A stretch of 64,000 bases of DNA, from positions 80,284,472 to 80,348,471 of the forward strand of contig CM055816.1 in NCBI GenBank assembly GCA_029582265.1, given 5' to 3'. The position numbers and the translations under genes are program-made. This DNA comes from Zoroaster sp. YZ-2022 (taxonomy: Eukaryota > Echinodermata > Asteroidea > Forcipulatida > Zoroasteridae). This document shows positions 16,986 to 64,000 of this stretch, one piece after another (position 1 is the stretch's first letter; every line of letters starts with the position of its first letter). Under the pieces are notes generated by a model. The model ran no database searches, was not told where the DNA came from, and saw nothing but the letters and a program-made list of their open reading frames with translations.

Positions 16986-17131
16986 CCGCTAATGTGAACA
17001 TAGTGAATAGCGTTTGTCAGTTAGTCCTGAAAATGTAGGGATGAATCCTGTTTACTTGCCTTTAATCCTTGGTAATTCCCACTGGTCCTTTACACAGCTG
17101 CAAAACATACTCCTTTGTAAACATAGGTAAC
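16986..17131 (+). repeat. Satellite unit left of the SINE insertion
   Basis: Matches 8471-8600, including the variant CACAGCTGCAAAACATACTC. The continuation of the same ancestral unit is found after the SINE at 18187. Confidence 0.75.
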
Positions 17132-18186
<1,055 letters not shown>

Positions 18187-21910: not shown

Positions 21911-22492
21911 TTAGTTGTCCTCAGTGGGAAGACCCCCTCTGTTCCATGTTCGCCACAACACGTCACCGGGTTCCCTCACACCAGTAGACTCCGTCTGCCG
22001 AACGGTGCGAACTCCAGTGGTGGTATCCTCCACCGTCTCAGTCATGGCCGTAACAAACTCTTCCCGCATGAGGACAGCATCTGTTTGTGCACCATTCTCC
22101 GCGCTGTTGACTTTCAAGAACTCCGTCGGGGTAGGGCACTCCACGAGCCCCGCAGTTTGGATGGTCCTGGCTGAGTACCACCGCTCGTTCATATAAATTC
22201 TCGCAGCCGAACCCCCTTCACCCTGTGATACAATCCTCCTGACGCTACTCACGTCAGCAGCGGAAGCGGTGGTCGCCTCCGCGGTACAAGTGGTCGGGGT
22301 AGCCGTCGGATGACACGTGTTCTCCGCATGGGACAATTGTTCATGTCGTGTAAGATAGTCCGACCGTTTGTACTGACGATCACACAATTTACATCGGTAA
22401 ATCTTTCCTTCATGGGTTGCCTTCTCATGTCGTCTCCTCGTATAGGACGACCCATACTTGCGGCCACAGACCCTGTGGCAGCTTTCAAGTTG
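21911..22492 (-). pseudogene. Gypsy-2 C2H2 zinc-finger region (ORF3 or pol extension)
   Basis: On the minus strand, downstream of integrase, a frame open from 22492 to 21911 encodes two C2H2 fingers. The first starts CHRVCGRKYG (C-X3-C-X12-H-X4-H) and the second CKLCDRQYKR (C-X2-C-X12-H-X4-H). A 130-aa tail contains ETVEDTTTG, matching the VEDTTT of Gypsy-1 ORF3. No Met precedes the first finger in this frame. The pol frame runs into the region without a stop and carries a possible partial finger of its own (FRHLNEHARYC, about 22530) just before the change. Either a frameshift separated a pol-finger fusion or pol and ORF3 overlap. A nucleic-acid-binding role is inferred. Confidence 0.65.
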
Positions 22493-22799
22493 TCATCCAT
22501 GTTGGGAGAGTTGCAATAACGTGCGTGTTCGTTCAAATGGCGAAAATCTGAGGTAGTGTTACATGCAAGCCCGCCCTCTGCCGGCCATCTATCATGCGGT
22601 CCGTTCTCACTAGAAGCAAAAACTTGTTGCAAATACCGCTGTGGCTTTCTCACAGCCCTGCCACGACGTGTGCACGGTATACCGACGGATGGGTCTCCTG
22701 CATTCGCGGACAAGGTGCGGTCGATACCGACGGTAGTGCTGCTTGTCCCAGCTAGATGGTTGCCTACTGCCGCGTCGGGATCTCCTACACCAGCAGTGG

Positions 22800-23060
22800 G
22801 ACCATCCATACCTGTGGTTTGGATGGGCCCCGGTTGAGTTGGACTATCTGTACCGACGGTGAGGTTGCCCATACCGGCGGTAGGACTGCCTATACCGGGG
22901 GTGGGGCTGCCTATACCAGAGGTGGGGCTGCCCATACCAGCGGTTGGGCTGCCCAAACCGGCGGTGGGGCTACCTACACCAGAGGTAGGGCTGCCCATAC
23001 CGGCAGTTGGGCTGCCCAAACCGGCGGTGGGGCTACCTATACCAGATGTAGGGCTGCCAA
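22800..23060 (-). repeat. 21-bp minisatellite encoding the integrase tail repeats
   Basis: About a dozen copies of a 21-bp unit centred on ACCGGCGGT on the plus strand. On the coding strand they give heptads of the GSPTAGM/GSPTSGI kind. The same motif recurs at 24530-24660 and 26960-27180 in the same element, in a different reading frame. Confidence 0.8.
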
Positions 23061-26000
23061 TAACGATGTTGGGGCTCTGTGTTGTGCTGGTTGCGTCTTT
23101 CTGTGTATTTACAGTTGCCTGCTGAAGCCCACGAAACCCACAATCTTCGCTGGATCTTCCATAACAAAGTTTCTGTCTGTCGGCATGTATAACTTGGGGA
23201 GTAGATCGGGGGGTCTTCTGAATTTTGTACAAAACATCCGACAGTTTTTCGACCACCACGAAAGGTCCACACCAGCTCCTGGTTAGTTTGGGGCATTTCC
23301 CTTTCTTTCTTATATTGTACTGGAGCCAAACCACTGATCCCTTGTCGTACAGCCGTCTCTCAACGTTTCTGTCATAGTGCCTTTTCTGTGCCCTCATCAT
23401 CGTGCTGGTGTTTTCCCTGGCAATCTCATGAGCAGTCGCTAGTTTATCTTGAAGATTCTGTGCGTATGCAGTGGTGGCTGTAGGCACATTTACCGGGATC
23501 GGCTCGACGAGCAGATCCACTGGCATGCGAACTTCCCGGCCCAACATCATGGCGTTTGGTGTCTCCTTTGTGGTTTCGTGTTCCGACGATCTATATGCCA
23601 TTGCCAACAGGGCCAAATGTTCATCCCAATCGGTTTGAGACTTGTCCACCCATACCCGTAGCATGGCTTCAATGGTTCTGTTGAAACGTTCAATCATCCC
23701 GTCGGATCTAGGGTGGTAGGGCGAAGTCCGTGTTTTCTTTATTCCAAGTAGGTAACACATCTCCCCAAAGACGGCTGATTCGAATTCCCTCCCTTGATCG
23801 GAATGAAGTTCAAAGGGGACGCCAAATCTTGCCACGAATTCTTCTACGAGTTTAGTGGCCACAGTAGAGGCTTTATGATCAGGAATCGCATAGCACTCTG
23901 TCCACCGGGTGAAGTAATCACCAACCACCATCACAAATTTGTTTCCACGGTTCGTGACCGGAAGAGGCCGCATTATATCAACAGTGATCCTTTCCATTGC
24001 TGCTCCAACCTGGTAATGAACCATCTTTGCCCTCTTGGCTCTCGCTGGGGGCTTGCATCTCTGGCACTCCTGGCAGTTCTGCACCCACCGGCGTGCCGAC
24101 GTGCGCATTGATGGCCAGTAAAAGTTGCTTCGGCACAACTTTGAGAACGTTTTGGCTACACCCAGATGGCCGGCAGTTTTCTGATCATGGAAGTGTTTCA
24201 TAACAGTTGACCGTAGGTCACGAGGCGTTAACACTCTCAGTCGGGCCTGATCAGTCGGTCTAGTCGGTTCCCAGCGGATATACAAGATCCCATGTTCAAT
24301 CACCAACTGTCCATAACGGGCCCACCAGAATTTCACCTCCGAACTTTTACTTGACACTTCTTCCCACAGTGATCTTTGCTGTTGTTCTGCCCATTTTAAC
24401 ACCTCTCTTAAATCGTTGTCCTCCCGTTGGCAGCGTGCAATATTGTCACAGTTCAGATCACGTTCCAGGTTGGGAGTCGATTCCCGTACCGGACGCACAA
24501 GCAACTGTAATGCAGGCACTTCAACCGGCAATGCAGCATGTACCGGCGGCGTGGCTTCCTGAACCGGCGGTGAAGCTGGCTGTACCGGCGGTGAGTCTGT
24601 CTGTACCGGCGATGAGGCTGCCTGTACCGTCGGCATGCCACCACGAAGGCGTTCAATTTCGAGTTCGGTACCCTTAGGTATCTCTTCTCCATCTCCGTGT
24701 TCACAGCTCGAAAAACACTTCCTTGACAAGGCATCGGCATTGCCATGTAGGTTTCCAGGACGATGTTCGATTGCGAAAGTGTAAATGCTGAGTTTTTGTA
24801 GCCACCTGGCCAACTGTCCCTGAGGGTCCTTCACGCCATATAGCCATTTCAATGGTCTATGATCGGTCCTGACACGGAAATGTGCCTCATACAGATAGTG
24901 ATGATATTTCTTAATGAAGAACACCACGGCCAACAGCTCGCGTCTTGTGACACAATAGTTTCTTTCTTGCCTTGTCAGTGACCTGCTGCCATATGATATC
25001 ACTCGCTCCTTGCCTTCCTGCATCTGTGACAACACGGCACCGACTGCGAATCCACTGGCGTCCGTGTCAAGGACAAATTGCTCAGATGGGTCTGGGTATG
25101 CCAATATTGGGGCGGAAGTCAAACAGTACTTCAACCGCTCAAATGCCTCCTGACACTCCTCTGTCCATTTAAACTGTCGTCCCTTCTCGGTTAGACGGCG
25201 TAGTGGCCTTGCAATTGCGGCAAATCCCTTGACAAACCGTCGGTAGTAGGACACCAGTCCTAGGAAGCTTCGGACATCCGTGACGGTCATCGGCTGAGCC
25301 CATTCCTGTACTGCACGGACCTTCTCTGGGTCGGTTGTGACTCCCACTGGCGAAACTACATGGCCCAAAAACTCCACCTCCCGTTGAAAGAACTTGCATT
25401 TCTTGGCCTTTAGCTTGAGGTTAGCTTCACGTAGTCTCTGCAGCACTAGACACAGTCTTTGCATGTGCTCCTCAAAGGTCTTTCCAAAGACGATAACGTC
25501 GTCGAGATACAATACTGCTACCTGCCACTAACCCAGCCAGCACTCGCTCCATTAGACGTTCGAAGGTCGACGGCGCATTGCAAAGGCCAAACGGCATGGT
25601 CACGAATTGGTACAGTCCACCTCTTCCCGTGCAAAATGCCGTTTTGGGCCGGTCCTCAGCAGCGACCTTGACCTGCCAGTAGCCGGAGGCCAGGTCAAGG
25701 GTGGAAAGAACTGTGATCCTGCCAGAGAGTCCAGGTTATCCTCTATGTGGGAAGAGGATGTGCATCTTTCGTGGTAACCTCGTTGAGCTTCCGGTAGTCG
25801 ATACACACCCTCACAGTTCCGTCTTTCTTTCTAACCAGCACGATCGGTGAACACCATGGACTATCAGAAGGTTCAATTACTCCCTGAGAAAGCATCTTAT
25901 CCACCTCCATGTCGGCCACCTCTCGCTGACTCAAGGGCACCCTCCTTGGTCTTTGCCGAATGGGAGGCGCATTCCCAGTTGCAATATGGTGTTCCGTGAG

Positions 26001-27231
26001 ATTAGTTCTACCAATATCCCCATCACCAGTTGAAAACACGTCACCAAAACTTCGCAGCAGTGCCGCCAGTCTCTCTTTCTCTGAGGTTGACAGGTGTTCG
26101 CAACTGGACTCGAACAACGATGCCAAATGTCCTGGGACCTCAGCCAGCAAATCGCTTGCCAAGTTATCATTCATCTGCCGACGGTCTGCCAAAACTGCAC
26201 CACTGTCCACAGGCTCAAGGAATGCAGCGTCAGTGCCCTTCCTCAGCATCTTTGCTTCTGAAGACAAATTCAAGAGTCTCACAGGGACTTGGCGGTCCCG
26301 TGTGTCAACAAGGGCGCTTGCAATCAACACATCACAGTCCATGCCCAGGGCTCCTCTGTTCTGCAGCATTCCCCAGACTGGCACGATTCCGGAGCACTCT
26401 TCCACCACCTTACACTTAAGCATGACCTCCGATAATGGCGGAATCATAACATCTTCATCCAACCGAACACGACAGATCACTGGCTCTTCTGGGTATGACA
26501 ACAGGGGAACCTTGTATCTACCAACCGTAAGGCAATCGTCTTGCCACACTAGTTGGCACTTGTGTTCTCGCAAAAAGTCTAATCCGAGTATAGTATCATC
26601 GCTAATATCAGCAACCCACATCATGTGATCTATTTCTCCACCACGAATTTTTAATCTCATTTTTGCTTGACCAACGACATGAAGTTCACTGTCATCTGCC
26701 TGACGAAACTTGCGAACTGCAGATGAGAGCACTGGTCTCAGCTGTGGCGTCACCTTTCAAACAGACGAGATGAAACGAAACTCTCCGTCGCACCAGTATC
26801 TATCAAGAAACATACATCCATATTCATCAGTCGTCCTCGGACATACAATCCTGTCCCCACTGAAGACGCTGACCGTATGCCTGTACCACGTTTCCCATAT
26901 TCCACACTGGGTGAACTTTCGTGCAATTCCTGGGTAGTGTCTGGCAGCAGATAGGCTGCCTGTACTGGTAGCGAGGCTACCCATACCGGCGGTTGGACTG
27001 CCTGCACCGATGGTGAGGCTACACATACCGGCGGTTGGACTGCCTGCACCGACGGTGAGGCTACCCACACCGGCGGTTGGACTGCCTGCACCGGCGGTGA
27101 GGCTGTACATACCGACGGTTGGACTACCTGGGCCAGCGGTGAGGCTACCCATACCGGCGGTTGGACTGTCGCCACCGGCGGTGGTGTAGGTTTGACTTTG
27201 AGCCTCTCGTTATCACCAGCTGACCTTTGGC

Positions 27232-28441
27232 TCACAAGCCCAGCTGTTCCTTGTTTAACGCCGTTGGTTTGGCTGCTGGGGCTGGGCACTCCGCTCGAAA
27301 ATGCTGCAGACTTCCACAATTCCAGCATCCTGGTTTCCAGTCTTTGGATGTCTTTTCAGATCTCAGTTGACGCTGTTGGGCGTCCATCAATTTATGTAGC
27401 ATCTCAACGAGATCAGAGTTCGTAGTGGGGCACCCACTGTCCTTGGTAGCTTCAGGTATCAATACGCGTGATTGGCCCACTTTCTCTGCCTTGTACCATG
27501 CCTCCGCTTCTGCCACGATTTCCACCGCCTCATCCAAGGATGTGGGCTTCCCTTGAAACAAAGCTCGTTTCAGTTCGTAGTCGTCAAGTGCGTTTTTGAA
27601 CTGTTCAATTGCAAAATCCTCCTGAAAGGTCAAGCCACAGTCTGGGTAAGCTCGGCGAACCAACTTCCTTATTGCCAATCCGAGCTCGGCCACAGTCTCT
27701 CCTATGCGTCTCTTCCGTGAAGTCAGCTCTGCACGATGGCGTGTACGTTGTCTTTCTGTCCCGAAACGACGATCTAGTGCTTTCACCAACTCCTTGAAGT
27801 TGGACTGTGACTCCTTGGGCAAAGAACAAGCCACTTCAAGCGCCTGCCCTTTTAGTGCCACCAGTAAGTAGTCAGCCATCTGTTGGTCGCTCCATTCATT
27901 AATTTGTCCCACTTTCTCAAAGTGGACAATATAATCCTCGATGCAGAAGGAACCATCAAACTCTCGAGCCTTCACCCGCGGGGTCAGCTTGGTGTTTGCC
28001 ACACTCACAGGACGGCGGGCCACACGGACAACAGGGCTACCGCCTTCGGCGGTTTCCGCGTGTTCCTCCGTGGCCTCTGCGTCCACGGAGCGGGGCTCAC
28101 AACCAGCGCTTACCACGGGGAGAAAGGACGGGGATTTATGGTACTCGCTGCACGACTCGCTGCACACCACCCTCCACTGTGCTCTTAAGTCGTCTTCAAC
28201 CCGCCGACGCCTCGAATGTTTACCACTGGCACCCGGCACCCGGCACCGATCCTCTTGTCTCCTGGGACATATTCCTGGGAGGGGTCGGTGTCACCAAATC
28301 ATCCCGTCGCCGTATGGTTTTGTTTCCTCTGCGTCGGGACACACTCGTTCTGTCCTCCAGCGACCGCTGCATCCGTTCAATGCTCATAGAGATGTCGCTG
28401 ATTTCTTCCTCGAGACTCCTCGATGCTCTGTAACTTGCCAT
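27232..28441 (-). pseudogene. Gypsy-2 gag, frameshifted near codon 80
   Basis: The start ATG is at 28441 (MASYRASRSLEEEISDIS), giving a coiled-coil-like N terminus. The main frame 28239-27232 holds a retrotransposon gag core (VKAREFDGSFCIEDYIVHFE through LTFQEDFAIEQF) and one CX2CX4HX4C zinc knuckle (CWNCGSLQHFRAEC). The frames meet at a run of three 7-bp GGTGCCG-like units (about 28222-28243). Gain or loss of one 7-bp unit would cause the shift. Gag packages element RNA. The stop TGA at 27232 lies 18 nt after a slippery heptamer. Confidence 0.85.
27253..27259 (-). promoter_or_regulatory. Candidate -1 frameshift slippery heptamer GTTAAAC
   Basis: The gag frame reads GCG TTA AAC here, placing G TTA AAC in the correct phase. 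A -1 slip leads into the frame that continues to the protease (GTT AAA CAA). GTTAAAC is a known functional heptamer in other systems. It occupies the equivalent gag-pol position to GGGAAAC in Gypsy-1. Confidence 0.55.
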
Positions 28442-28490: not shown

Positions 28491-28708
28491 TGTAGCGAAC
28501 GGCCTATGGGTACCTTTCTCCTATTCGTTGCAACCGCCAACAAAAGGAAACATGAGACTGGATTTACAGAAGGAAACCTGCTTTATTTACAACTTCGGTC
28601 CTTACTGTCTGAAACTTTCAACATAACTGTTCAAAAAAACAAATAAATCGCTTGGGTCGCAGCCAGCATTTTTCCCGCTGGCGCGAAGTGAACAAAGAAC
28701 AGTCTATA
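28491..28708 (-). repeat. 5' LTR of Gypsy-2, inner part
   Basis: The first 218 bp of the LTR copy next to gag, identical to 21526-21743 except for two bases, cut off at the EnSpm-1 insertion. The last two bases (TA) belong to the target duplication. Confidence 0.93.
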
Positions 28709-29290
28709 CACTCTCAGAACGTTGGTTAAAAATGTTAACCAACTTGGATACAATTTTAACCAACCTCGTATTACCAGGTGAACAGCCCAACAGTTGGGCA
28801 AACTGCTAACCAACCAGGGTTGGTTAGCTTTTAACAAGTGGTTGGTCAAAAAGTTTAACCAATTACTGGTTAACTGCACTTTACCCAACCTAGTTGTGTC
28901 ATAAAAGTTGGGTATTATTTGGCAAAGGGTTGGGCAAAGTTTAGCAATTAGTTGGTTATATACAAATGGTTGGGCAATTCATTTCCACTACATGTCATTT
29001 AAATCTTAACCATCTGTTGGTTGAATTGTTTTATTTTACCCAATAACTAGTAATCATTTAACCAACTAATGATTAATTCAGGGTCATACAAGTTGGGCAT
29101 TATAATTGGGCAAGAGTTGGGCAAAGTTTAACCATTAGTTGGTTATATAACAATGGTTGGGCAAATCGTTTCCTCTAACCATTTTTTAAATCTTAACCAC
29201 ACGTTAGTTAAATTTTGTTTTAATACCCAATAAATAGTAAACATTTAACCAACTAATGGTTAATTCAGGATCTCAACATGATTGAATTGG
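28709..29290. repeat. EnSpm-1 left subterminal repeats
   Basis: Roughly 20 short motifs of the types GTTGGTTA, GTTGGGCAA and their complements TTAACCAA and TTGCCCAAC, in both orientations, within 580 bp of the left end. CACTA elements carry such arrays as binding sites for their accessory protein. Confidence 0.75.
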
Positions 29291-30842
29291 AAATGGGTAA
29301 ACACGTTTTTAATAAACACACTTAACTATTGTAATTCTAGCAACGTTATTTTATTTTTAACTCCGAAACAACCTGTAACCAACTCCAAACATAAAGCATT
29401 AAGCTCACAAATCTCACAGTTGATGATAGCCTGTATTTAAATGCTTTTGCTATTACAATACATGTATGCCAAAATCCCTTTTTTCCCCAGTTGCACATTT
29501 GGTGGCAGAGGTTAATTGAAAACCGAGAATCTGACTAAATAATTGTCTTTCCTCTCATTGCTTTTGCTGAGTAGCGTTTCAAAGTATTTTTTTCTAATTA
29601 CGCAACACTGACAAATAGTTAAGAAATAAACTATTGCAATTACTGATAATAAAACCAGCCACAGATTCCTTACATGTGAATCCGAAAAACATTAATGTGG
29701 CAAATTGCACTTTGCATAAACAGATAGATCATATGGATCCCAATTAGGCAAATTAAAATTAGTCCTTTCAATTAAGTTACTTATGGACTTGTTCGACTGG
29801 TGGCACTCAAAACGTAGCAGTCAAAGGTCACATAATAATTATATAATAACTGCTGAAGTCAACAAGGGGCCCCAACTTGACCTAAGTGTCCAAAAGAACA
29901 CAAGTAAATAAATAAATTAATAATACAATTACAATTTATTATCGCCATAGTCTTCGATAGTGTTATTTAGAATTACGTTAGATTTAATAGATATATTTTC
30001 ACTATCATTACTATCACCCATTAGTTCAATCTATTAGGATTGGAATTATTAGCAGTACTACAATTATGATGCCGATGCAATTATCATAGTCTATTTTATT
30101 GTGCCTTCATTGGCATTACAGTAAAATAAAGGCCTCATTTCAGTGCTTTGTCAGCCGTTCCTATGAATGAACTTATGTAAGATACATATAAACCTGAGGT
30201 GATGATCACATCTACCTTTCGAACAGTAGGTCACAGGGTTAATACTTGTTTCTCAGGCCACATTGTACTACTAATCAAGTGACACAAATGAGGCCATAAA
30301 ATATTCAAACATGTTATGTTTTGGATCATCAGTATTTAGCTATTTCTCAAAACACAAAAACTAACATTTTATTTAACTTTGCTTTTAAGCAAGCCAGAGA
30401 GTGGGTAGGCCTCAGTCCTGTGCGACTTGAATCAAGTTTTAATTTACATGTAGTAACAATGGCTGAGAAGTTGGGAACCTTTTTGTTCTCTCTCTCTTTT
30501 AATTTTGAACCTTAAAAAAATTTATAATTTAAAAGCAAGTGACTTGTGACTCAGACTCAGACTTGACCTTTGTGTCTTGGACTCGACATTCATGTCTTGG
30601 ACTCGACCCAAATGACTTGGACTCGACATTGAGGACTCTGACTCTATGATTGAGAACTCGAGTACAGACTGGTAGGCCTATGCCTAAATTGTTTGTTCTC
30701 TAGCTTTCTGTTTTTTCTGATAATCAGAAGCAACTTGCACAACTTGAACATTCTACTTCAACATTGTAGAAATGCAACTAAATGAAAGCGGAAAATTCTT
30801 ACAAATGCTGAAAACTGCAGGTCTGATGTTCTTTCCATTGAA

Positions 30843-33800
30843 TCAATTAAGAGATTTAATGTAGCTCCTAAACTGCCTAATTGAGGCTGCAGTAGTTTCT
30901 GTGCCAGTTACCTGTGGAGGCAATTCATACACATCCTCCAAAAAATGCCACACAGCAAATGAGAGTGGCTGGTAACCCAAATCTAATACATACGTTAGCT
31001 TAAACGTGTAATCTACGGCCTTTGTTAATGTCTCCATTTCAGTAGCTGCTCTCTCCAGGATGACAAAGACTTGGCTTGGTCGAAGTCTGCTACCTCCAAT
31101 CATTAGAATGAATGGTTGTGGTCTTGCACTTCTGTCAATGCTGTTTAGAAACAAATTGAGATTGGTCCCTTCCTGCATTTTGAAACAACACAGAAACAAG
31201 CATTGGGATGAGATATAGCCTAGACAAAGGTTTCAGACTTCAAACCTGACCAAATTTACTGCAATGTTTCCTACAAAAAACTACAATACAGCTCCACAGT
31301 ACCGTCCTTATGAGGTTGATGAGGGACTGCTATTGTTGGCCATTGAGAACCAAAATTTGTTCCTGTAATTCTGTACATTATTACTGCTCAGCAAACTACA
31401 TGTTAAAACATAAATGACTTGCCGCCCATAGCAACAAAACTGGTAAGGGTGCAGAAGTTGTTCCCTTTATGTTGAAACTGTCAGACCAAGTTATATTTGC
31501 TAGTGCTACAATAAAAATCTCCCATTTTGTCTGGTTTTATTATTTTTTCTTCTTCAAACTGTTGAGCACTACATAATTATGTGATCTCCACGATGATGTC
31601 AGATGGATGACATTTTAACTGCATAAGGAGATAGAATCTTCATTAAATTAAAAACAAGCAAAAGAAACGTGTTTCTGATGCAGCCCAGTTCTGTTAAAAA
31701 ATACTTTTTGCAGACAGAAGTTGACCATATTTATGCTATTGGATGTCCATCCTGCAGCAAAAACACAGTTACCAACGCTCTTCTTTGATGTTTAAGTCGA
31801 ACAGTGACCCCAGTTCCGACTTAAAATAAATATATGTCTGCAATCACTATTTAACTATAAGTAGTTTTAAATCAGAGACATTGGATGGATTGTCAGGTGA
31901 CATACAGGACAAAATTGTTCACTTTGTGTCGAATTGCCCAATGTCATTATGTGTGTAATCAAATGTAATTATATAAGGTCACTACTGTACAACAAAAACA
32001 AACACAAATCAAACAACAAAACTTGAAATCTGAAACATACACAAACACACACTAACCGGCTGGAAATCCATGAATGCTGACAAGCTGTCTTGGATGTTGC
32101 ATTTCCCTCTCATGCCTTTGGCTCGCCCCCGAAAAATGAAAGGAAGGACATTGAAGGCAAGGTTCCTCTCTTCCTCTGTAGATGTCAAAGTACATGTACA
32201 TAACAATTACTTTGATTTTGGTGCGAATTGTTTGGGGAAAATATCTTAATCCTGAAAAAGGGCAGTATGCTGCCCAAAACATCGACTTAACCAACAGTTC
32301 ATTTCAGAATCACACTTACTTCTTAAAAATACAAACAGCCACACGATATTACCTTGGATAAAATCTCCACTTGAAGAATAGTTATATTTTATTAGCTCTC
32401 TCCCCAACACACACTCAAAACAGTTACTGACTACTACCTAATTACCTTCTGAAAGTGATGAAATATCAATAGATGCAGCATTCATCAAATGTTTTTTCCA
32501 CGAAGGATCCACTTGATCTGCATAGTGAAGCACAGAACTTGCCAATGCTGGCCACTTCGCAAAAAGTAGATCAGATTTAGAGGATATAGTGCATCTGAAA
32601 TCCTGTTCAACCTGCAATCATTAGACATAAAATTTACTTAAATTGTTGTTTTATATCAGGGCCTACACTTTTGCGAACCACTCAATGTGTGCCCATCAGC
32701 TCTCTATAAATTGTAAACATGCCACATCCTCAGTTCTGTTTTAACAAGAATGATTTTTAACATCTATAGAGTTAAAATTTCATGTTTATTTATGTGCGTA
32801 TATGTATATGGTATACACCCATTTCCATACAAGTTACAATTGGGAGCAGCATTTAAAAAAATTTAAAAAAACGGAAAAAGAAAAAAAAAATGTTCCCAAG
32901 GATCCCCAGTTGAGGGATTGCTGGAAAAAGCATCAAACATGTTTTTTTTGTTTTTTTTGTTGCTGCTGTTGTTGTTTTGTTTTTTTGTTTTTTTTGGGGG
33001 GTGGTTTTTAAAGTATATAAACACACATTATTTTTCATGTTTACTGTTTTGTAAGCAAAAGACATTTTTTATCTTCCAAACACTCAAAGCTAGTAGGTAG
33101 CCAGGTTAGCTACTCACAGACTTTAATTTGAATCTTGGAATCTTGTAATCTTGTATGATCATGAAGTCAGAAAAGAGGAAACACATTCTTTTTGCCAGTA
33201 ATATCAAAAGTATAGAAAAGCATCTCACGTTTCCAATGTCAATAAGACGTGGATACCTCTCTAGGATTTTAGCAATGGATCTACGGTCATCATCTTCCTT
33301 CTGTCTTATCCACTTGTGACGAGACCAAGCTGTGTCCATCATGTATTGTGTGCATTTTTTCTCTGGTACTCTGTTGTGTTTCATCCATTCCACCCTTTCG
33401 TTATCCTCTTCATCTGGTAGCAACACTAAAAGCCAAAGTATTATGTATGAGGATACTGACTGATTTATTCCCTAACAAACAGAGTCAATTTTAACATATC
33501 AATTAACACTGGAAAAATTATTGAAAGCATGAAAAACATTGTTTCAATCAACATCAGAGAGACAAATGAATATTTTACAGCATGCCAACGTACATAAACA
33601 TTCATTTAATTCCAAAGTGACAACTATTCTTTCAGTCCAGTTAAAAGTCTTTGCACCTAAGGTGGACCCAGAAAAATGATCTGGGCAGGTCCACCAATGT
33701 GGTCAACAGTGACAACCACACGTGAGTGTGTGTGTTGGGCGATGTACCTTGTACATGAAAGAAGTCTCCAATAAACAGGAGTATAATCTTTATTTAAGGT

Positions 33801-36800
33801 TGCCATCTTAAAAAATAGATTTCCTCTCTCTCTTTTAAGAGTTAATAATAGCCTTTTTGTAATTGGCCTTGTTTTTCACAGAAAGTTTGAACTGTTACGA
33901 CTATGTAGTATCTCTTGAACAACATATTGGCAATGGGTACCTTGATTTTGCTGTAGAGGTTGTGGCTGTTCATCTTTTTGGGGAGCTTTCTTGATTTCTG
34001 TATTGTCGTGAATCAAATTTTTCCTGATATACCGCAGGCGATCCTCGAGGTAACCACTTGCAGGTCTCCCCTTCTTCCCTTTAATGTACCACAGTTCCTG
34101 TCACAAAAAAGAAACAGGTTGGTTACTCCTTATGAAAGTGAAATGGAACATTTAAACTGAAGTTGGAAATCATGTATAAAAAGTGGGAGGTGGTTGCAGA
34201 AAGTCCAAAACAAGAGCAAATTTACAGTTTTGACAGTTTTTCCTTTTATCAAGTGTGTAAGATTTGATAACGAGGCTTTTTTCTTTTAATAAAGAAGGCT
34301 ATTAGAGATGATGTTTGCACTATTAAGTAGGGGTTTAGACATCACCAGAAGTAAGCAGTGGGTTTGAGTCTACCGATACTTGGTGAAAGTGCAAAATGCT
34401 ATTAATTCTGTCTTGATAAAATCCTATCAAGTAACTATCAAACATCCCATAATTGTCTGTCCATTCTCACGGTTTGCTAAAGATGTCCATGCACATTATT
34501 CAATATTTCAGGAACTTTATACACAGACTGTGACACAATTTACTGGATAGAAAACATAACTGAAAATCATTAAAAATTAATGCTAGCTGCCCACTCATCA
34601 AGTTCAGTTAATTTCATTAAAAAACTCACATATCCAGTCTCTCCTTTGGGGTCCTTGAGGAAATCAAATATCTCCACAAGACTCAATGCCAGGGTCTCTT
34701 TGGTTTGAGATGATGGGCTGTAAGAAAAATAGGTAAAAAGAGTTACAATACACTATATATTTTTATGTGGCCTGTGATGAAGTGCCTATTTCGTTTACAC
34801 TTTACTGATATAAACATGAAGTTATTCAAAACATTGTTTGCTTGTATAAGGGAATGAACAAGTATAACATTCTTACTTTTTCCCGTAAGTGTCCATCAAA
34901 TGGCCGACTAGTGCATTCTTGATGACTTTTGTGTCTGCCCTTGATGCAAATTTATTCTTTTCAATGTTGTCAATAGTTGCTTGCCCTTTCGGGACTGCAG
35001 ACACTATGGCTCTTATATCCTGCAGTAAAATAAACAAAAATGGGAAGTACATGTAATTCAGTGTTGTAGACAGGCTCATCACAAATACCAATTAAGTCAA
35101 AAACTGTTTTTACCAATTGTATCCAAAGTGATTAGCAAATGTCATGTTTTTATTCATAGTGCACATATCTCACAGCAAATAAAATTTACTTTTACAAATT
35201 ATAACAATATTAAGTACATTCCTCTCTACTCTGTAGCAATTTATTTTTCTATAACTTTCCACTATGTTTCACCATGGAGCTATAAAAAATGATTCCATGA
35301 TTTGACATAATATAACAAAAATATGTATGTATTCAGAGGTCAAAGAAACAATTCAATATTTGATTTAATATTTGATTTGAAAAAATGCAAACATCACTGA
35401 CACTGCAGCTATGAAATAAACTCTAGTAAGCCAATTATAGCAGTAGCGGACTTACAAACTGTACTCTTTGTTTTTTCGGTGGAGGTTCAAGGGATGACAC
35501 AGGCTGCATATCTGGTGGTTCACCGCGTGAAGGGCTGGCGTATCCTGACATCATACTCTCAAAGATCTGCAGTGCAAAATATGTTGATCATCTTAAATTG
35601 TCTGTTTATATTTACAAGCAACATTACATCAAAACTCTAATGCAAACATTATGACTATCTTCCCATTTCCAGATAGTTTTCTTTAAAAGTTAGACAGCCT
35701 GACGTTTCGATCCTAGCAGCACCTGCTGTCAGGCCCTCCAACTTTAAAGATTTGTATAAATCATTTCAGGCAAATCCATTCAGTAAGCAGTTATTACTTC
35801 TCAGTTTTGTGTAATGTAACACACTATTCCAAAATGTGTTTAGTGATATAATACAAAACAGGACCTATACAGGGTAAGTGTTACAACTTGTTGCAATGAG
35901 CTCACAAATTCATGATGGTGTCTTTATTACATTTTTCAACATGCATTACTGACATGGAGTATTGTCCTAAGCAAGTTGAAAACGGGTAGATATGTAGAAA
36001 TTAGTGTCTTGGGGGGAGTAGCTTTGCACTGCATGGACAGGCTTATAATCTCCCAGGCTTTCTGGTGTTTTCACTGTAATTTCCAAGGTGTCTGGAGCCT
36101 TCACAGCATAAGCATGGTAGTGATCATTGAAACTAAGAGTAATCCATGGATTCACTAAGAAATACATCTTGTCATTCAGCAGTACGATTTGTTGCACCTC
36201 TCCAAAATCGGGTAAGTTCTCACCCCAAGACAAAAGGAGGATTGTGTTAGGCTTTATCTGGTAGCCATTTACTACCACTACGCTTGCTAAAGTTATATCA
36301 GAGTCTAAATTACACCCCAGACTGGCACAAACAGTTTCAGCATTTTCCAAGCTAGTGACGGGGACCACTTCTTGGCTGGCTATTTCAATGCCTCTTGTTT
36401 CAACACTCTCCTTTAGAAGAAAATCATAGCTTTGTCCAAGCTGGTGCCTCTTTACCACTGTCTTCGCTATATTTATGTAATTGTAGCATGTTTTTGCCAC
36501 ATGTTTTAGAGCTTTATGCTTGGCCTCAAATCGCATAGCAGAATAGGGAGGCAGTGGTCCAACTAGCCGAATAATGCGTGGGTAATGAATTAAGTGATGC
36601 TGCTTAGGTATTAATGGGATAGCTGGAAACAACTGCTTAAACAGTCTGTGATGATCAGTAATTTTTCCTTTGAGCATGTAAGTTGCAGCACAAGTTATAC
36701 TTGGTGCTAGAAGCAACTTGTGTATGCTCAGTAGCTCCAGCAGCAAAGCCCAGTGATCTGAATCTTCACTCACTTTGTCACCAATGATTAATGGTAAGTA

Positions 36801-39800
36801 GTTGAAGAGACACTGCATCTGGGAAGCCTTTTGTCCACTGCTCCCTTTTGGATTCGCTAGTGAATTTGGTGTAATTACACTTGGGCGATTCTTTGCATCT
36901 ACAAATCCATAGCTGAATGCTGCGATTCTGCCATTCAGTTCAACCAGGCTAAAACAGTTCTGCTCAATCAGTGCACTGATGATGAGCTTCACTTCCATGG
37001 GGACGACTCCTTCAAGAAGATCATGCATCAAGTCAGGAGCAAAGTTGAACACAACATGGTAATAACTCAGCTCATTCAGGGTGCTGTAATGGGATACACC
37101 TGTCTTGGACAAATCTTTAATTTCAATGTCTTGGGCATAATTTTCCTCATCTCTTAGTGAGGTTGTATTTTCCTCCAATTGCTCTTGACATTTTTCTCTA
37201 TGCTCTTTGCAGTGTCTACAGGGATAGTTTGCAGTAAACCCTCTTGCATAGCCCAACATTCCATGCACTCCGAGATTGTCACCAACTACTTGAAAAGGTT
37301 TGGGTCGCACAAGTCCTCTGAATTCAGGGGTGTCAAGGGAAATTCCATCATCATATACCTTCTGAAAGTCTTGCACAATTACCTTTTGAACACTGTCGAT
37401 GCCATATTTTGTAACAAGCTGTGATTTGACTAACGCCACCAGTAGTATGTTGCTCAAACGGCTTTGGAACTTTCTTGGCATGCACAATAATGACATGTAA
37501 AATGCACACAACTTGTGAACACCCTTACGAGACCCTAAAGGGTTTGCTGGCTCCCAATCGTCACTATACATGTACAACAGAATAGGAAGAACAACACATC
37601 CCGCCTCCTGAAACATCTCTTTAAAAAACCTGCCATCTTGATACGACTTTAACACCCCTGTTTCAGCATCCTCATTTCGTTGATATTCTAATACAGCTCT
37701 CATCATCCCAGGCAACTGGAGATACAATTTTAACACATCTTGAATAGGAACATACATAAATGATTCATTTTTTTCAACATGTTCCATTCGGCCAGTAGTC
37801 TTATTCAAAGAAGCATTATATGTAGAACCCAGAAATCTTTCCTCTGGCATAACAATAACACCAAGTTCCTTAGCATACTTCAATTGGTTGTAGTCAGATT
37901 TGAGACTGGCAAAACTGTCTTTCAAAAGGTCGCATTCAGTAATAGCAGTTTCAAAATTCTTTTGAGTTAAAAACCCGTTCTCAAAGTCGTTCTTCATGAA
38001 GACCAATTTAGACTTCATGTGATCAACTGTTGTATCCATCAATTCCTCCACATGTTCAGTGATAGTTTTGATTGTTGATATTGGAATACCGGTGGTTCTC
38101 TTCAGACTTGCAATAAACAAGGCTGCTTCATGTTTTAAGTCTGTTTTAATTTCCTCAGTAAATATTCTGTATTGGTCACCATCACCATCACCATCTTCAT
38201 CGATTCCGACTTCTTGATTATCAACAACTGCATCATTCATGCCATTGTGAAAATCAGCTGCGACATGCTGTTTCAGTTGTCTATGTAAATGATCGTTCAT
38301 GATGTGTCTTTTATATGTTTTGCAGTGGGAAAACTGTCGCTGGCAACCAGTCTCATGGCAAATGATGTGAGTCGAGGTGCTTGAATTAATGTTATGAATG
38401 TACTTTATGTGACTGAAAAAATGGCCAACTGAACCAGTGATTGGCTTCAGACATTTAAAGCATGTAAAACTCACTTCTTCTGGTCCACTTGGGTTGTGGA
38501 TAGCATCTTTCCAGTTGCTGTATTCACTTTTAAATTTCAAGCGTTGACCAATTTTAGGAATGAGTTCCTTCAAGGTAGCATCGTCTAATAGATGAAATGC
38601 CTCATCATCAACTTCATTTTCTGCAAAGGCAAAACAAGTAGAATTAATCACTTAAGATGTAGAATATACCTGTACCAATTGTGTCTTTTCATTGAAAGTT
38701 ATAATTGGTGGGGTGGGGCCTTTTTAACCAATTATTATTATTGTTGTTATTAGTATTTTATTTTATTTTATTTTATTAGTATTTTATTTTAAACCAAAGG
38801 CATCTGCAGCTCTAAAACAAAACCCCTGCCATGCCCTGATTTCCTTCATAATCTGAAACACCTGACCCTTCATAACTTAATTTTTAACATGAACATATGC
38901 AACTTATCTTTGTACAGGGGTCCAAGTATCATCCTGCATACATCAGTGAATTTTTTATTTAATTTTATTTTATTGGAGTGGGTGGGAGGGAAGGGTTCTA
39001 TGCACCACAATTTTATTTATTTATTTTGTTGATGCACTATACCTTGTATTTGTATGGGACTGCATATAAAAAAAATGATATATTCTCAAAAAGAGTTTTA
39101 TTCGTATATTATAGAAAACAAAATAGGCCTACGTAAATGTATTTTGTATGATGATAACAATAACAAGTTATCAAAAACAAAGAGTGCTCTCAAAGATTTA
39201 GTCCATATGAATTGTTGATTTAGAACAGGCATGACAATCAAATTTGTAAAGATACTCTGTACCAAGTACATGTAACGTTACAGGCACTGTACATATACAA
39301 TGTAGTAATGTACAGGACTACACTGCCAGAGATGGACTCCTGCACACAACACGACGGAGTCCAGCCTACTTTCCTTACATTACATTTCAGGGTGCATTTA
39401 CAATACAATTTTTTTCATAATTTTACATGATGGAGGAAGCAGAAAATATCCATATTGTCCTTATGTCAAGATTTCGTAGAATCCTGGTTTAGACATGTTA
39501 AAATTAAATGTGTCCGTAGCCTAGTTTACATACATGCTCAGCAAAAATACATCAACAACTTCCTGTTTTCGTTGTGTGTTTTTGTGTGTGTGTGACTTTG
39601 CTTTCTTGACATATTTTTCCGACACTGTATGCGACACGCGCGCGCATCACACACGCCGCTCACGTACACAGATGGTCGTATACAATGTACATTCACCAGT
39701 TTACGTGTGTTGTGTGCGTGATGCGCGCGTGTGTCGCTTGCGCGCTCTTGATCTTACGAAGCTTGTACGTACGTGCGAGCGCATCCACCACGCATGCCGC

Positions 39801-40296
39801 ACATGTACATGTCGTACGCAGTGTCGGAAAAAGAAGTCAACAAAAAGTCATAACGTAAACAGGAAAATGTCAAATTATTTGTTGAATTAATACCACATAG
39901 CCAAGGCCTACACTGTCATTTCACATTTCTAAAATCTAGCGATCTGCGAAAAAAATAAAAACAATCTCTTGTAAAAGCCTCGCATTCCATGATGTTAATA
40001 AGCTGCTGGACTCTGTCGCGTTATAGGCCTAACTTATAAAATTATCTTGTAGGCCTAACTGTTATATTTGTATTGTAATTCTTGCATGCAACGGAGGACA
40101 TCACTACACTGGGAATTAGTATTTCTTGCTGCAAACAAATCATCTCCGGGCAACTAGCAACCACCCCCAGTCAAACACATTATTTTATACAACAGAGAAT
40201 ACATTTACAGAAAATACATCTTGTGTTTTTACCTTCAAATATCTCTGTGAGGTTTTCCAACCCCCACTCTTTCAGTTTTGCTGTCACGTCCGCCAT
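30843..40296 (-). CDS. EnSpm-1 accessory protein, SAM-domain (SAMD3-like), 10 exons
   Basis: Inferred exons on the minus strand: 40296-40233, 38620-38475, 35566-35456, 35019-34877, 34717-34630, 34097-33941, 33425-33229, 32611-32446, 32175-32057 and 31172-30843 (stop TGA-type end at 30843). The lengths sum to 1521 nt (506 aa). All introns are GT-AG and all phases agree. The first 70 codons give a SAM domain shared with the transposase (WGLENLTEIFE, then LKELIPKIGQRLKF). The middle has a basic patch (PPPKKQRVQF) and charged helices. The C terminus (QPFILMIGGSRLRPSQVFVI) resembles a family found in many fish proteins annotated as sterile alpha motif domain-containing protein 3-like. By analogy with plant TnpA it may bind the subterminal repeats; that role is inference. 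Exon 2 uses the internal donor at 38474. Confidence 0.75.
32252..32280 (+). ncRNA. Degenerate hammerhead-like motif in EnSpm-1 intron
   Basis: CTGAAAA, a GGGCAG/CTGCCC hairpin and AAAACATCGA imitate the hammerhead layout CUGANGA - stem II - GAAA, but the core bases are altered. It is probably a relic of a Penelope- or retrozyme-type sequence. Confidence 0.3.
35697..35733 (-). ncRNA. Hairpin with GAAACGTC, ribozyme-like relic
   Basis: The minus strand reads CCTGACAGCAGG, TGCTGC, then GATCGAAACGTCAGGC. CCTGAC/GTCAGG can pair, and an outer pair (AACTTTAAAG with CTTTAAAAGTT, 35681-35751) encloses it. It ends in the GAAAC typical of hammerheads but lacks a proper CUGANGA. It lies between the transposase stop and exon 3 of the accessory gene. 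Confidence 0.3.
35923..35928 (-). terminator. Polyadenylation signal AATAAA of the transposase
   Basis: AATAAA on the minus strand about 40 nt after the transposase stop codon. Use of this site would give the unspliced, transposase-type 3' end; read-through is needed to reach the accessory exons. Confidence 0.55.
35967..40296 (-). CDS. EnSpm-1 transposase (tnp2-like) with SAM and zinc fingers, 2 exons
   Basis: Exon 1 is 40296-40233 (ATG in the context AATAATGG) and exon 2 is 38620-35967; the 1612-bp intron is GT-AG with a GCCTTTGCAG acceptor. The spliced frame is 2718 nt (905 aa) without a break. A SAM domain spans about residues 5-60. Two Cys/His fingers follow (CFKCLKPITG and CHETGCQRQF), then an acidic run. 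The catalytic region shows the CACTA-type signature YSDDWEPANPLGSRKG (about 373-388), VVGDNLGVHG (466-475), a CRHC...C cluster and PDLMHDLLEGVV (550-561), and later MRFEAKHK. These are marks of the tnp2/EnSpm DDE transposases. It cuts and joins element ends in the nucleus. The SAM domain may mediate pairing with the accessory protein, which shares it. Confidence 0.88.
38469..38474 (-). promoter_or_regulatory. Internal splice donor GTGAGT that ends the SAM exon
   Basis: Within the transposase ORF, after codons for PSGPEE, the strand reads GAA GAA|GTGAGT in phase 0. This is a near-consensus donor placed directly after the SAM domain. Exon 3 of the accessory gene at 35566 also begins in phase 0. 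Retention of this site gives transposase; use of it gives the accessory protein. Confidence 0.65.
39558..39868. mobile_element. MITE-like foldback inside EnSpm-1 intron 1
   Basis: The left arm (TTCCTGTTTTCGTTGTG, TGACTTT, TTGAC, TTTTTCCGACACTG) returns inverted on the right side (CAGTGTCGGAAAAAG ... CATAACGTAAACAGGAAA). A GT-rich run in the left arm breaks the symmetry. The core is CpG-rich. The target duplication is not clear. It lies in the intron, so it does not disturb the coding exons. Confidence 0.55.
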
Positions 40297-40384
40297 TATT
40301 TCTCGTTGGAAAAGTGGAACTTCTGCTGCTGCTAAGCGCGGCAAAAAATGCACCAATGAAAACTCGTTCAGGCTAGCACGTGAC

Positions 40385-40669
40385 CTTCGTTGGGCAAAGT
40401 TATTTTAACCAATCAGCTGCCCAACAACGGCAAAGGAAGGTGTTGTGCAAGATGAATTGGTTAAAATAGTGTACATTTTAACCAATGTTTGGTAGTTCTG
40501 TTTTGTATATCACCCAACCTTTATTTTACCCAGCCTGCAAGCACAGTTTACTTTAACCAATCAATTATTTAAAATTTGTTTACCAAATTAATGAAATCTA
40601 ACCAACATGAGGCGATTTTTAACCAATTAAATGTTAATCAGTGGAATATTAACCAGTGTTTTGAGAGTG
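40385..40669. repeat. EnSpm-1 right subterminal repeats
   Basis: Clustered TTAACCAA/TTGGTTAA, CCCAAC and GTTGGGC motifs in both orientations over the last 285 bp, matching those at the left end. They lie 5' of the shared start codon, so they may also act in the promoter. Confidence 0.75.
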
Positions 40670-40671
40670 TA

Positions 40672-40762
40672 TATAGTCCCTGGTCGTTTCCGGTCCAATC
40701 TCCGGAGCAAATAGTTCTCACACCGGCGGTTGCAACCGGCGGTTTCCAAAGTGTCCATTACA
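40672..40762 (-). repeat. 5' LTR of Gypsy-2, outer part
   Basis: The remaining 91 bp of the split LTR, identical to the end of the other LTR across the compared bases, followed by the GTAT target duplication. Beyond it, 40767-41101 holds only intron-like AT-rich sequence. Confidence 0.93.
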
Positions 40763-55111: not shown

Positions 55112-58100
55112 CTAGTCACTTTCAAATTTGTTCGGCAACCGGACAACAAAAACTCTTTGACCAACAGTCATTTTAACAGCCTTTCTGTCGATGTCATTCT
55201 CTCTGAAAGCCCTGACCTCATAAGGACACACCTCAACCTCTTTGATGTACAGTTTCTGTCGTCTCACAGACTCTGACAACGGTCTCAAAAGCCTACTAAT
55301 GACAAAGGTGTCACACACAATCACAACATTCATCATGATCACAATTAACCTTCATTGAAATACACTTCAGTATATCCCAGAACACACCATTGGAAGACAT
55401 GAAAGTAGTATTTGAAGATTTTGACTTGCTCGTATACTCCAAGGTGTGATACATTGTATTATTTACAATGAAACACTTATGCTGCTGCACAAGTACTGTC
55501 TCCAAAGCCATTACTTCACCTAAGCAAGCTTCAACGGCAATTTGTTCAACAGGTTTCAACTTCTTGTACACTGGTTCTCCACACACAACAAAATTAGGTG
55601 TTATATGATGATGACTCTTTGGCCGCTTCACACCAGATGTCAGATGTGAGTACATATGACATACAGATGGTGATGCATTACGTAACCTCTTGTTGGCTTC
55701 TTTAGGAAAACTGCTGCAAAACGAAATGGTTGTATATCTGTTCAGGTGCATGTTGGGTGCCTTTGAGAAACTTTAACAACACACCATTCTGGTCCTCAAA
55801 AGTAAACCCTGATATTGCCCATGCCAGAGGGGACCCCAATTTCTTACAGACTGAGGTAAATGCATCAGTTGGTGAATGTTGAAGGATAAATGTTCGTGAC
55901 CATACAAGCCTTCCATCTGCTGCACAAACTTTGTAAGCTGCCCTTCAGCCCTGTCTATATCTATGTGACTAACTTTGTCCTGTAAGAGAGAATGCATTGC
56001 AGCGACTAGTAAATCCCAGTGCCTCTTGTACAGAGTGGGTAAAACACCGTCAATAATAACTGAAGAATAAAATAGTAGAAATGCCCGCCATTCGTTTGCT
56101 TTGAAATATTTCCTAGTCTTCAGAGAACGTGGACGTCTTGTGATTTCAATTGGAGGAAAGATTCCCAACAAGCATCTGTCGAGCCTTTCGACACTCCTCC
56201 CAATATACCATGATGCTTGATGATAGGACGAGTCAAACCACAAAGTTGTCAGCTGTCTACATATTCCCAGATGAACTGCATGCATGTAGTCTGGTGCAAA
56301 GCCAATGATTATGTTGAAGTGAGGGAGAAGCATCAATATGGAGGGGCCTTTGACACCAAACACTCTTATCCCGTCATTTAATGCTTCCAAAGCATGTCTG
56401 CGATGGTCCACCTTGTTACGTTGTCTATGCTCCTCATACCGGTAGACCCGAACATGCTCATGAACCTTTTATACTGTAACTCCTGGGTTATAACACCAAT
56501 CACATCCTGAAGATCCGTTGAATTGAACACAATTACGTATCATTGGTCGACAGATTGTGTCTGCAATACAAACAGCAACAATGACTCTGGAACGTTTCAC
56601 CCAATTTCCACTTTTCCATGTCATTCCCTGAGCTTCAAGTTGTTTCATCTCTTCAACGAACGGCTTCAGATAGGTGTCTGTTCTTGGTTTCAGAGGACCA
56701 AACCACAATGTCGTCAATAACCTGTGTTGCTTCCTCAAGTTTGGAGGCAATTCATTGATGAGACAGTGGACAGGCCAAATGGAGTATCCACTGGATTTGA
56801 ACACACAAGCACCATCACAATTCCATATTAAGCTTAAATCATCAACCATCAACCCTGCTTCTTCACACATCTCTTTGTACTTTTCTCTACCCATTATGTC
56901 TTCAAGAGGTTCTTCATCTTTAAAGATGGTTCTATTGCAAAGGCTTGCCCCAAGACCATCTTCAAGTTTTTGCTTCAATTGATCTGCTATGGGAAACACT
57001 AAAGAGAAATTACCGCTTTTCACATTGGGTAAACAAAACTCGCCACAATCTGGACAAGCTGTACCAGCACAATTCTGTAGCTCTCCGATATAGGCCAAAG
57101 AAAGCTTACAATAAAAATGGATTTGAACTTGCTTTTTGTAATCGGGGAAAGTTTTGAAAAACTTGTACTTTTTTGCAGGGACACTATTACCGTACATTGT
57201 GTTTTTAAAGCAGATCCAACACATCTTGCACAGCATCTTTTGACAGATGATGCCGTATGCAATATGCCAAAAGCAAGAGCAAACTTTGAGCCTTTGTTAC
57301 ATCTGAGCCAGGCACGAGTGGTTCATCTCCATCTTCCAATTCATACTGATCATCGAGTTCATCTTGAATGGCAAAACCATCTTCATCATCAGAGATCTGT
57401 TTACAAAAAGAAGCACGTAAATCAGTTGAATGAAATCAAAATAATTGGGTATGTTAAACAAAAACAGGCCCTTCATTCATTTTCTCCATGAAAATGACTG
57501 CAGAGAAATAAAAGTTTTACTAACCATAACCCTCTTGAATCCTCCAAATTAAATTGGGGAATTTTGTTGACTTTGAAGATTTGAAGGGCATTTAAAAATT
57601 CAACTTTTTAATTGTGGATGATGGAAAAAGTTGGAAAAAGGTATAAAGGCAATGTGGTGGGGCAGATCACCTGAAACTGCCCGTGTAAATGTACTTACAA
57701 TTGAATTGTGGATGGACCCCTGATCATCGTCATCATCATCTCCACTATCCTCATCATCATTTCCATTATTGTCATCATCATCCCCACTATCGTCATCACA
57801 GTCCCCACTATCGCCATCATCATCACCGTCGCCATCATCACCATCATCATACTTGTCATCATCACTGTCATCAGCATCAACACAGTTCTCATATACCTGA
57901 ACATAATTTGAAAAGAGTTCAACATGCAAACAAGGCCATTTACCAGATGATACATTAAAAAATCCTGTGTTCATATAAGAGAAACAGAAAGGAAGCAAAA
58001 ACACTTACAACTGAGTTTGGTATGGATCCGTCATTATCATCATCGTTAATGTCATTGTCATCATCAATATTCTCATGATCATCATCATCATCTTGAGATA

Positions 58101-63100: not shown

Positions 63101-63914
63101 ATCAGCAATGGATCATAAAGATATTATATCCATGTATTTCTACTTGGGATTCAGTTACAAGGAAATTTTGTGCGCACTCGCTATAAACCATCGAATCTTC
63201 ATTAGTCTTAGGACTTTGAAAAGACGCTTGCATGGCCAACGTCTGTTTCGTCGCAAATATCTTACAGACATTCTAGATGTTGCTTCCTACATCTTGGAAC
63301 AGATGAGGGAAAGTGGAAATATGCATGGATACAGATGGATGCATTTGAAATGTCTGCAAGCGGGTAAGGTCGTCCAAAGAGATACAGTTTATGCCATAAT
63401 GAAGATTCTAGATACTGAAGGAGTATGACTCAGGATGAGAGGAAGGCTTAGAAGACGAGAATACTTTGCAAGAGGACCCAACTATCTGTGGCACTTGGAC
63501 TCCTACGACAAATTAAAATCATATGGGTTACGAATCAATGGTTGCATTGATGGCTTTTCATGTCATTTGATGTGGTTAAACGTATATCGCACCAGCAGTG
63601 ATCCCAGAGTAATCGCTGGATATTACATCGAGACAGTGGACGAAATGAAGGGGTGTGCACATTTGGTCAGAGGAGACATGGGAACTGAGAACGGACGTGT
63701 GGCTGCAATGCAAAATTTCTTGTCGGAGCGAGAGAGCTTTCTGTATGGGAAAAGTACTCATAATCAACGGATTGAGGCTTTCTGGTGTATGTTGCGTAAA
63801 GAATGTACGCAATTTTGGATGGACACCCTGAGTTCAGTAAAAGATGCCGGCGATTTCAATGGAGACCCCCTAGACGAAGGACTGATGCAGTTTTGTTTTA
63901 TGAGGTTGGTCCAG
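63101..63914 (+). pseudogene. DDE integrase-like gene, one in-frame stop; continues past window
   Basis: A TGCCTTTCAG acceptor precedes the ATG at 63108. The N terminus (ISMYFYLGFSYKEIL, then LRTLKRRLHG) looks like a helix-turn-helix. The core matches a family of animal proteins annotated with an integrase core domain: RGPNYLWHLDSYDKLKSYG gives the first Asp, VRGDMGTENGRV the second, and HNQRIEAFWCML the Glu. A TGA at 63426-63428 interrupts an otherwise continuous frame between the two halves. The exon ends RLVQ|GTGAGT at 63914, so more exons should follow beyond the window. If the TGA is a polymorphism or error, the gene is intact here. Host domestication or a live transposon are both possible. 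Confidence 0.72.
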
Positions 63915-64000
63915 GTGAGTACCATGCTCCAGTTTGGGGTCGCGGACTAATGGAGATAATAAAAACAAAAAATACTACTTTCTTAAGGGGTACACCGCTA

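Follow-up and report, generated by a model that had tools for sequence, protein, structure and literature searches.

Can one transcription unit of an animal EnSpm-type transposon make two proteins by using or ignoring a splice donor that lies inside its transposase reading frame? This question is raised by a locus of Zoroaster sp. YZ-2022 (contig CM055816.1), for which the original prediction had proposed that a SAM domain leads either a transposase or, after splicing, a series of downstream accessory exons. We refer to the whole 64,000-nucleotide stretch that was analyzed as the window. The features of the element within it are listed here in the direction of transcription, after the element as a whole.

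28709 to 40669, minus strand: whole element, 11,961 bp, delimited by its pair of terminal inverted repeats (TIRs), with the left terminus matched exactly in other copies
40649 to 40673, unstranded: right TIR with flanking TATA, at the 5' end of the unit (inverted-repeat search)
40370 to 40669, unstranded: 5' subterminal region upstream of exon 1, with the same TTGGTTAA / TTGCCCAA repeats as the 3' region (motif counts)
40233 to 40296, minus strand: exon 1, with the ATG and first half of the SAM domain and a phase-1 donor (rebuilt ORF; counterparts in L009, L020, and L024)
38475 to 38620, minus strand: short form of exon 2, the remainder of the SAM domain, ending in GPEE (rebuilt ORF and SAM similarity; counterparts at 26 of 30 loci including the window)
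38469 to 38474, minus strand: inner donor GTGAGT, phase 0 (rebuilt ORF; counterparts in other copies)
35967 to 38620, minus strand: long form of exon 2, with the second half of the SAM domain, a C2H2 finger, and the transposase to its stop (rebuilt ORF; protein relatives)
35456 to 35566, minus strand: accessory exon 3 (rebuilt ORF; candidate counterparts)
34877 to 35019, minus strand: accessory exon 4 (rebuilt ORF; C7 counterpart)
34630 to 34717, minus strand: accessory exon 5 (rebuilt ORF; C7 counterpart)
33941 to 34097, minus strand: accessory exon 6, containing GKKGRPASGYLEDRLRYIR (rebuilt ORF; C7 counterpart)
33229 to 33425, minus strand: accessory exon 7 (rebuilt ORF; C7 counterpart)
32446 to 32611, minus strand: accessory exon 8 (rebuilt ORF; C7 counterpart)
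32057 to 32175, minus strand: accessory exon 9 (rebuilt ORF; C7 counterpart)
30843 to 31172, minus strand: accessory exon 10 with stop (rebuilt ORF; C7 counterpart)
28709 to 29408, unstranded: 3' subterminal region with abundant TTGGTTAA / TTGCCCAA repeats (motif counts)
28705 to 28729, unstranded: left TIR with flanking TATA (TATA followed by CACTCTCAGAACGTTGGTTAA), at the 3' end of the unit (inverted-repeat search)

Rebuilding the reading frames from the sequence recovered the ten predicted exons at their predicted places on the minus strand (40296–30843), with nine introns that are all GT-AG and joined in matching phases. With the inner donor at 38474 in use, the product has 506 aa; with the donor skipped, a 905-aa SAM-transposase ending at 35967 results, again as predicted. 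The explanation that we consider likely is an animal CACTA/EnSpm-like element that has a single main transcription unit and works like En/Spm and SmTRC1: the transposase is nested, and the choice made at donor 38474 yields either a SAM-accessory protein or a SAM-transposase. Which of the two proteins is made probably depends on this one splice site. The transposase would occupy the 5' portion of the second intron of the SAM-accessory gene, and use of the donor would remove it and give the 506-aa protein. Where the donor is left unused, exon 2 would continue to the transposase stop. In the window's family, where the two frames are fused, this would give the 905-aa protein, with no other start codon ahead of the zinc finger. 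Most relatives keep the frames apart, which would make the long exon dicistronic there or call for another transcription start for the transposase.

The N-terminal part of both predicted products can be assigned to the SAM domains by its match to known members. Residues 3–49 match the SAM domain of ANKS6 in the PDB (phmmer E 4.2e-5), and the ANKS3 SAM domain in the PDB is also similar (phmmer E 0.0051). Against the Pfam SAM_1 model, residues 1–53 scored 15.3 bits (E 0.027), which is below the cutoff of 23, and SAM_1 was found at E ≤ 0.01 in 2 of 10 accessory entries and 1 of 19 transposase entries. The name SAMD3 was absent among the protein matches, most of which are unnamed.

A search of the 1.0-Gb genome gave at least 59 transposase matches, a number that includes fragments of the same copy (50 of 647 candidates scored), and 30 loci, including the window's own (L003), were compared with 1.5-kb flanks. 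A SAM exon lay 5' of the transposase on the same strand at 26 of these 30 loci, the window's included. It was not found ahead of the transposase within the 1.5-kb flanks of L005, L026, L027, and L032; in L027 the stretch just ahead of the finger is that of L006 and is in frame. The first phase-0 GT after the SAM domain was GTRAGN in 16 of the 26 copies and GTGAAA in three. By eye, L006 has a GTAAAT candidate further on, and GTAC-type sites were seen in four copies (L008, L025, and the frameshifted L017 and L030). No usable donor was present after the SAM exon in L011 and L016 (2 of 26). Sorted by eye, the 26 copies form about 15 groups of like copies, ten with GTRAGN, two with GTGAAA or GTAAAT, two with GTAC-type sites, and one with none. 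Exon 1 with its phase-1 donor was recovered in three copies from two unfused groups, clearly in L009 and more weakly in L020 and L024.

A SAM domain common to both proteins had been predicted, and as a general rule this did not hold, being confined to fused lineages. The finger could be read in 29 copies, the window's among them. In 23 of these the transposase has its own ATG beside the finger and no SAM domain in frame, the start of the finger being damaged in L011 and L016; four have a SAM frame running into the transposase (L003, L004, L006, and L027), and two have neither. Met1 alone precedes the finger cysteines C75 and C78 in the window, the next Met being residue 129. Since the window's family has no Met between exon 1 and the finger, its complete transposase depends on exon 1. 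The window's GTGAGT doubles as the codons Val-Ser, at the place where relatives have the transposase start. In the tree, all tips scored as fused form one clade (support 0.998); this scoring relied on continuous frames for L003, L004, L006, and P0006–P0009 and on gene models for P0011 and P0020, the P0011 model skipping the finger. Three other gene models with SAM ahead of the transposase (P0014, P0018, and P0025) lie outside this clade and were left unscored. Also outside it is P0029, a public protein of 850 aa (about 29% identity) with an in-frame SAM-transposase, its SAM domain recognized by eye, which is perhaps a second fusion. The fusion is probably derived, and it may have arisen more than once.

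The only near-identical copy found, C9 (L002, L004, and L033), is truncated at both ends; its exon 7 contains a stop, and its transposase is interrupted by gaps. Compared with window positions 33940–32771, it diverges by 2.7–3.7% in introns 6 and 7 and by 0–0.9% elsewhere, a pattern that would fit an exchange of segments between copies.

The alternative that survives best, which we nevertheless regard as unlikely, is a pair of nested genes with no splice switch: SAM would belong to the accessory gene only, the transposase would be expressed from its own intronic promoter, and the in-frame ORF of the window would be incidental read-through. This would fit the ATG beside the finger in 23 of 29 copies, where the first in-frame ATG has a purine at −3 in 22 of 23, and the early stop that the SAM frame meets past the donor in many copies. 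However, that ATG is missing from the window's family (L003 and L004), and in L006, another fused copy, a single in-frame ATG lies within the SAM exon. Fused open frames also recur in relatives (P0005 and P0007–P0009, with a SAM tail in P0006), a pattern to be expected of a fusion that is in use. Moreover, the gap from donor to ATG is a few tens of nucleotides or fewer in several families, which leaves too little room for a separate promoter there; one further upstream would be possible.

Proteins of other species bear on the predicted junction. The search gave 43 transposase matches, most of them unnamed, the named ones including Holothuria, Amphiura, Asterias, and the hake Merluccius. An intron-free public sea-cucumber contig of 2773 bases carries a 503-aa ORF (P0001) in which the end of the SAM domain is joined to accessory sequence. 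Its first 92 aa are identical to the start of the H. leucospilota model P0011, and its next 153 aa are placed in P0011 after 609 aa that are mostly transposase. Given the lack of introns, P0001 is most simply read as a cDNA in which the SAM donor was spliced onto the accessory exons. In A. japonicus, P0048 and P0049 (named isoforms X3 and X2, names that may be model-driven) pass from SAM to accessory sequence directly after GWKKE and GWREE. Separately, P0051 of Asterias rubens (isoform X1) has the first half of SAM followed directly by late accessory sequence, which suggests further splice forms.

These proteins also make it very unlikely that the main product is a single protein of three parts, SAM, transposase, and accessory region. 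The Holothuria models P0014 and P0018 (1370 and 1325 aa) do join all three, as P0011 does in part, but they are gene models in which the transposase runs on into accessory sequence. Against them stand P0001, P0048, and P0049, which are SAM-accessory proteins without transposase, and the window's transposase, which ends at a stop. In the window an AATAAA follows that stop by 38 nt. Across copies, such a signal just behind the transposase stop is not a general feature: AATAAA occurs within 200 nt of it in 5 of 27 copies vs. 30 of 252 background windows, and AATAAA or ATTAAA in 7 of 27 vs. 57 of 252. The maize tnpD message carries the TNPD and TNPA frames in tandem (PMC1636069), and by analogy the same may hold in the window's element.

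The accessory exons were found well beyond this copy. Searches with window and echinoderm queries (E ≤ 0.01) placed accessory matches downstream of the transposase on the same strand at 16 of 30 loci within the 1.5-kb flanks, and no match lay upstream or antisense in those 30 loci. All five loci read further (L033–L037) have accessory exons, L033 being the near-identical C9 copy and L035 (C6) keeping only part. The original prediction had proposed looking for the same exon order in other copies, and it was borne out in the C7 relative (about 54% transposase identity), where exons 2–10 could be traced with borders set by hand at GT-AG sites. They form an open chain of 546 codons, 41% identical to the window over 553 columns, with phases 0, 0, 2, 0, 1, 0, 1, and 0, the same as the window's eight. 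Exon 1 of C7 was not found within the flank examined, and its transposase match contains two stops. A first accessory exon with a phase-0 open frame and a GTAAGT donor was present at all four loci tried, window included, with one to four candidates per locus. That the downstream exons are a captured or neighboring host gene, or chance open segments outside the element, is also very unlikely, for although accessory-like proteins without transposase are annotated in a sea urchin and a starfish (P0002 and P0050), the exons lie inside the TIRs and recur behind transposases at many sites with phases kept at 41% identity, and this recurrence and the C7 phases largely contradict it.

As for the inner donor of the preferred two-product explanation, its sequence taken alone does not stand out: among the 143 GTs in the ORF, two match the donor consensus more closely and three equally well, and a second GTGAGT occurs at 36773. 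The inner donor stands above chance because exon order, phases, and open frame are conserved in the C7 relative, and because proteins of other species have junctions at the homologous place, as judged by eye.

The boundaries of the element were set by two TIRs of 25 nt each (28705–28729 and 40649–40673), 88% complementary. The 21-nt left end, CACTCTCAGAACGTTGGTTAA, was found exactly at five other sites in the genome with three further kinds of flank (L046 and L044 being one site); no other copy showed the right end. Short motifs are concentrated near both ends: 11 of the 13 sites of TTGGTTAA in the element fall within the terminal 700 + 300 bp (binomial P 9e-11), as do seven of the eight sites of TTGCCCAA. 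The 5' cluster lies directly upstream of exon 1, and the 5' subterminal region may serve as the promoter. In C7 the 3' terminus, about 1.5 kb past exon 10, likewise has the GTTGGTTAA motif. The accessory protein could be a TnpA-like partner that binds GTTGGTTAA-type subterminal repeats; a structure search with its predicted fold gave no informative match.

We call the element CACTA-like rather than CACTA proper because its ends begin CACTC, its flank match is not 3 bp, and its protein gave no match to Transposase_21 (PF02992) at E ≤ 1. The window terminus reads CACTCTC and the C7-type terminus CACTGTT, so that CACT is kept and the CACTA terminus is not. In the window flanks (CTATA/CACT..AGTG/TATATAG, the single copy with both ends), TA or TATA agrees and a 3-bp target duplication does not. 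Transposase_21 was detected in 5 of 19 relatives scanned (best E 4.2e-6) and DUF4218 in 3 of 19 (best E 0.0044). The echinoderm and fish transposases P0005–P0030 belong to the same family; like the window's, they start with a C2H2 finger, several have SAM ahead, and accessory sequence follows the transposase in the Holothuria models and, by eye, in the hake model P0030. Unlike the window's, many begin at their own Met by the finger with no SAM domain in frame.

In maize En/Spm, the accessory gene houses the transposase ORFs in an intron, and TnpA binds repeats located toward the two ends. Both parts of this tnpA/tnpD design were found in the window: a transposase ORF in an intron of the accessory gene on the same strand, and short motifs repeated in both subterminal regions. 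The window's element differs in having a SAM domain, CACTCTC termini, and a flank match of TA or TATA rather than 3 bp; we know of no SAM domain in TnpA or TnpD. The single maize unit is alternatively spliced into four transcripts (PMC1636069). The claim that a maize-like design operates in an animal element was upheld as regards one unit, a nested transposase, an in-phase donor shared by many families, and a sea-cucumber contig that joins SAM to accessory sequence with no intron, and failed as regards a generally shared SAM domain. Nor was the idea new for animals, since SmTRC1 of Schistosoma mansoni, also a CACTA relative, was described in 2006 with several spliced transcripts, the shorter apparently more abundant, an explicit TnpA/TnpD parallel, and a 2-bp target duplication in 7 of 14 copies (PMC1636069). 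In contrast to the window's element, its PrA and PrB are reported to be without detectable relatives and its ends begin CCC, and the sections of that description covered here mention no SAM domain (PMC1636069). The open PubMed Central literature yielded no paper linking EnSpm/CACTA transposons with SAM or SAMD3 (Repbase and Dfam lay outside this search). Within the reach of our searches, what is new is a partner protein that carries SAM, its repeated occurrence in many families, and a fusion by which a donor becomes codons.

A broader proposal, which is possible but falls short of likely, is that these elements represent a widespread, previously undescribed CACTA-like lineage of animals (echinoderms and probably fish). 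Its members would encode a SAM-bearing, TnpA-like DNA-binding protein with the transposase nested in intron 2 of its gene, and a donor at the end of the SAM exon, conserved across families, would set the ratio of the products. In some lineages the frames would be fused, so that both products share SAM and could co-assemble by SAM-SAM contact. If this is true, dose control and transpososome assembly would be coupled in one exon. The analysis suggests that nesting of the transposase in an intron of a partner gene, as in maize, has persisted in a large group of animal elements rather than being an isolated oddity, and it names a partner protein with a recognizable domain. It also provides a gradation from unfused frames to a SAM-transposase fusion in which the same few bases act as codons and as splice donor, and the balance of CACTA-like transposase and accessory protein could be tested in animals from existing RNA data.

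Other mobile sequences occur in the window. A second CACTA-type relic lies at 55773–57236 on the minus strand; neither of its two ORFs has a SAM match, and 56469–57236 matches Transposase_21 (E 4.7e-8). By ORF content, judged by eye, two gypsy-like retroelements are present at 2118–7330 and 22249–28239, both on the minus strand, the second ending near the 3' TIR of the element. A long simple repeat at 17069–17716 gives poly-Ile ORFs on both strands, and an integrase-like ORF, recognized by eye, lies near the window end at 63435–63950 on the plus strand.
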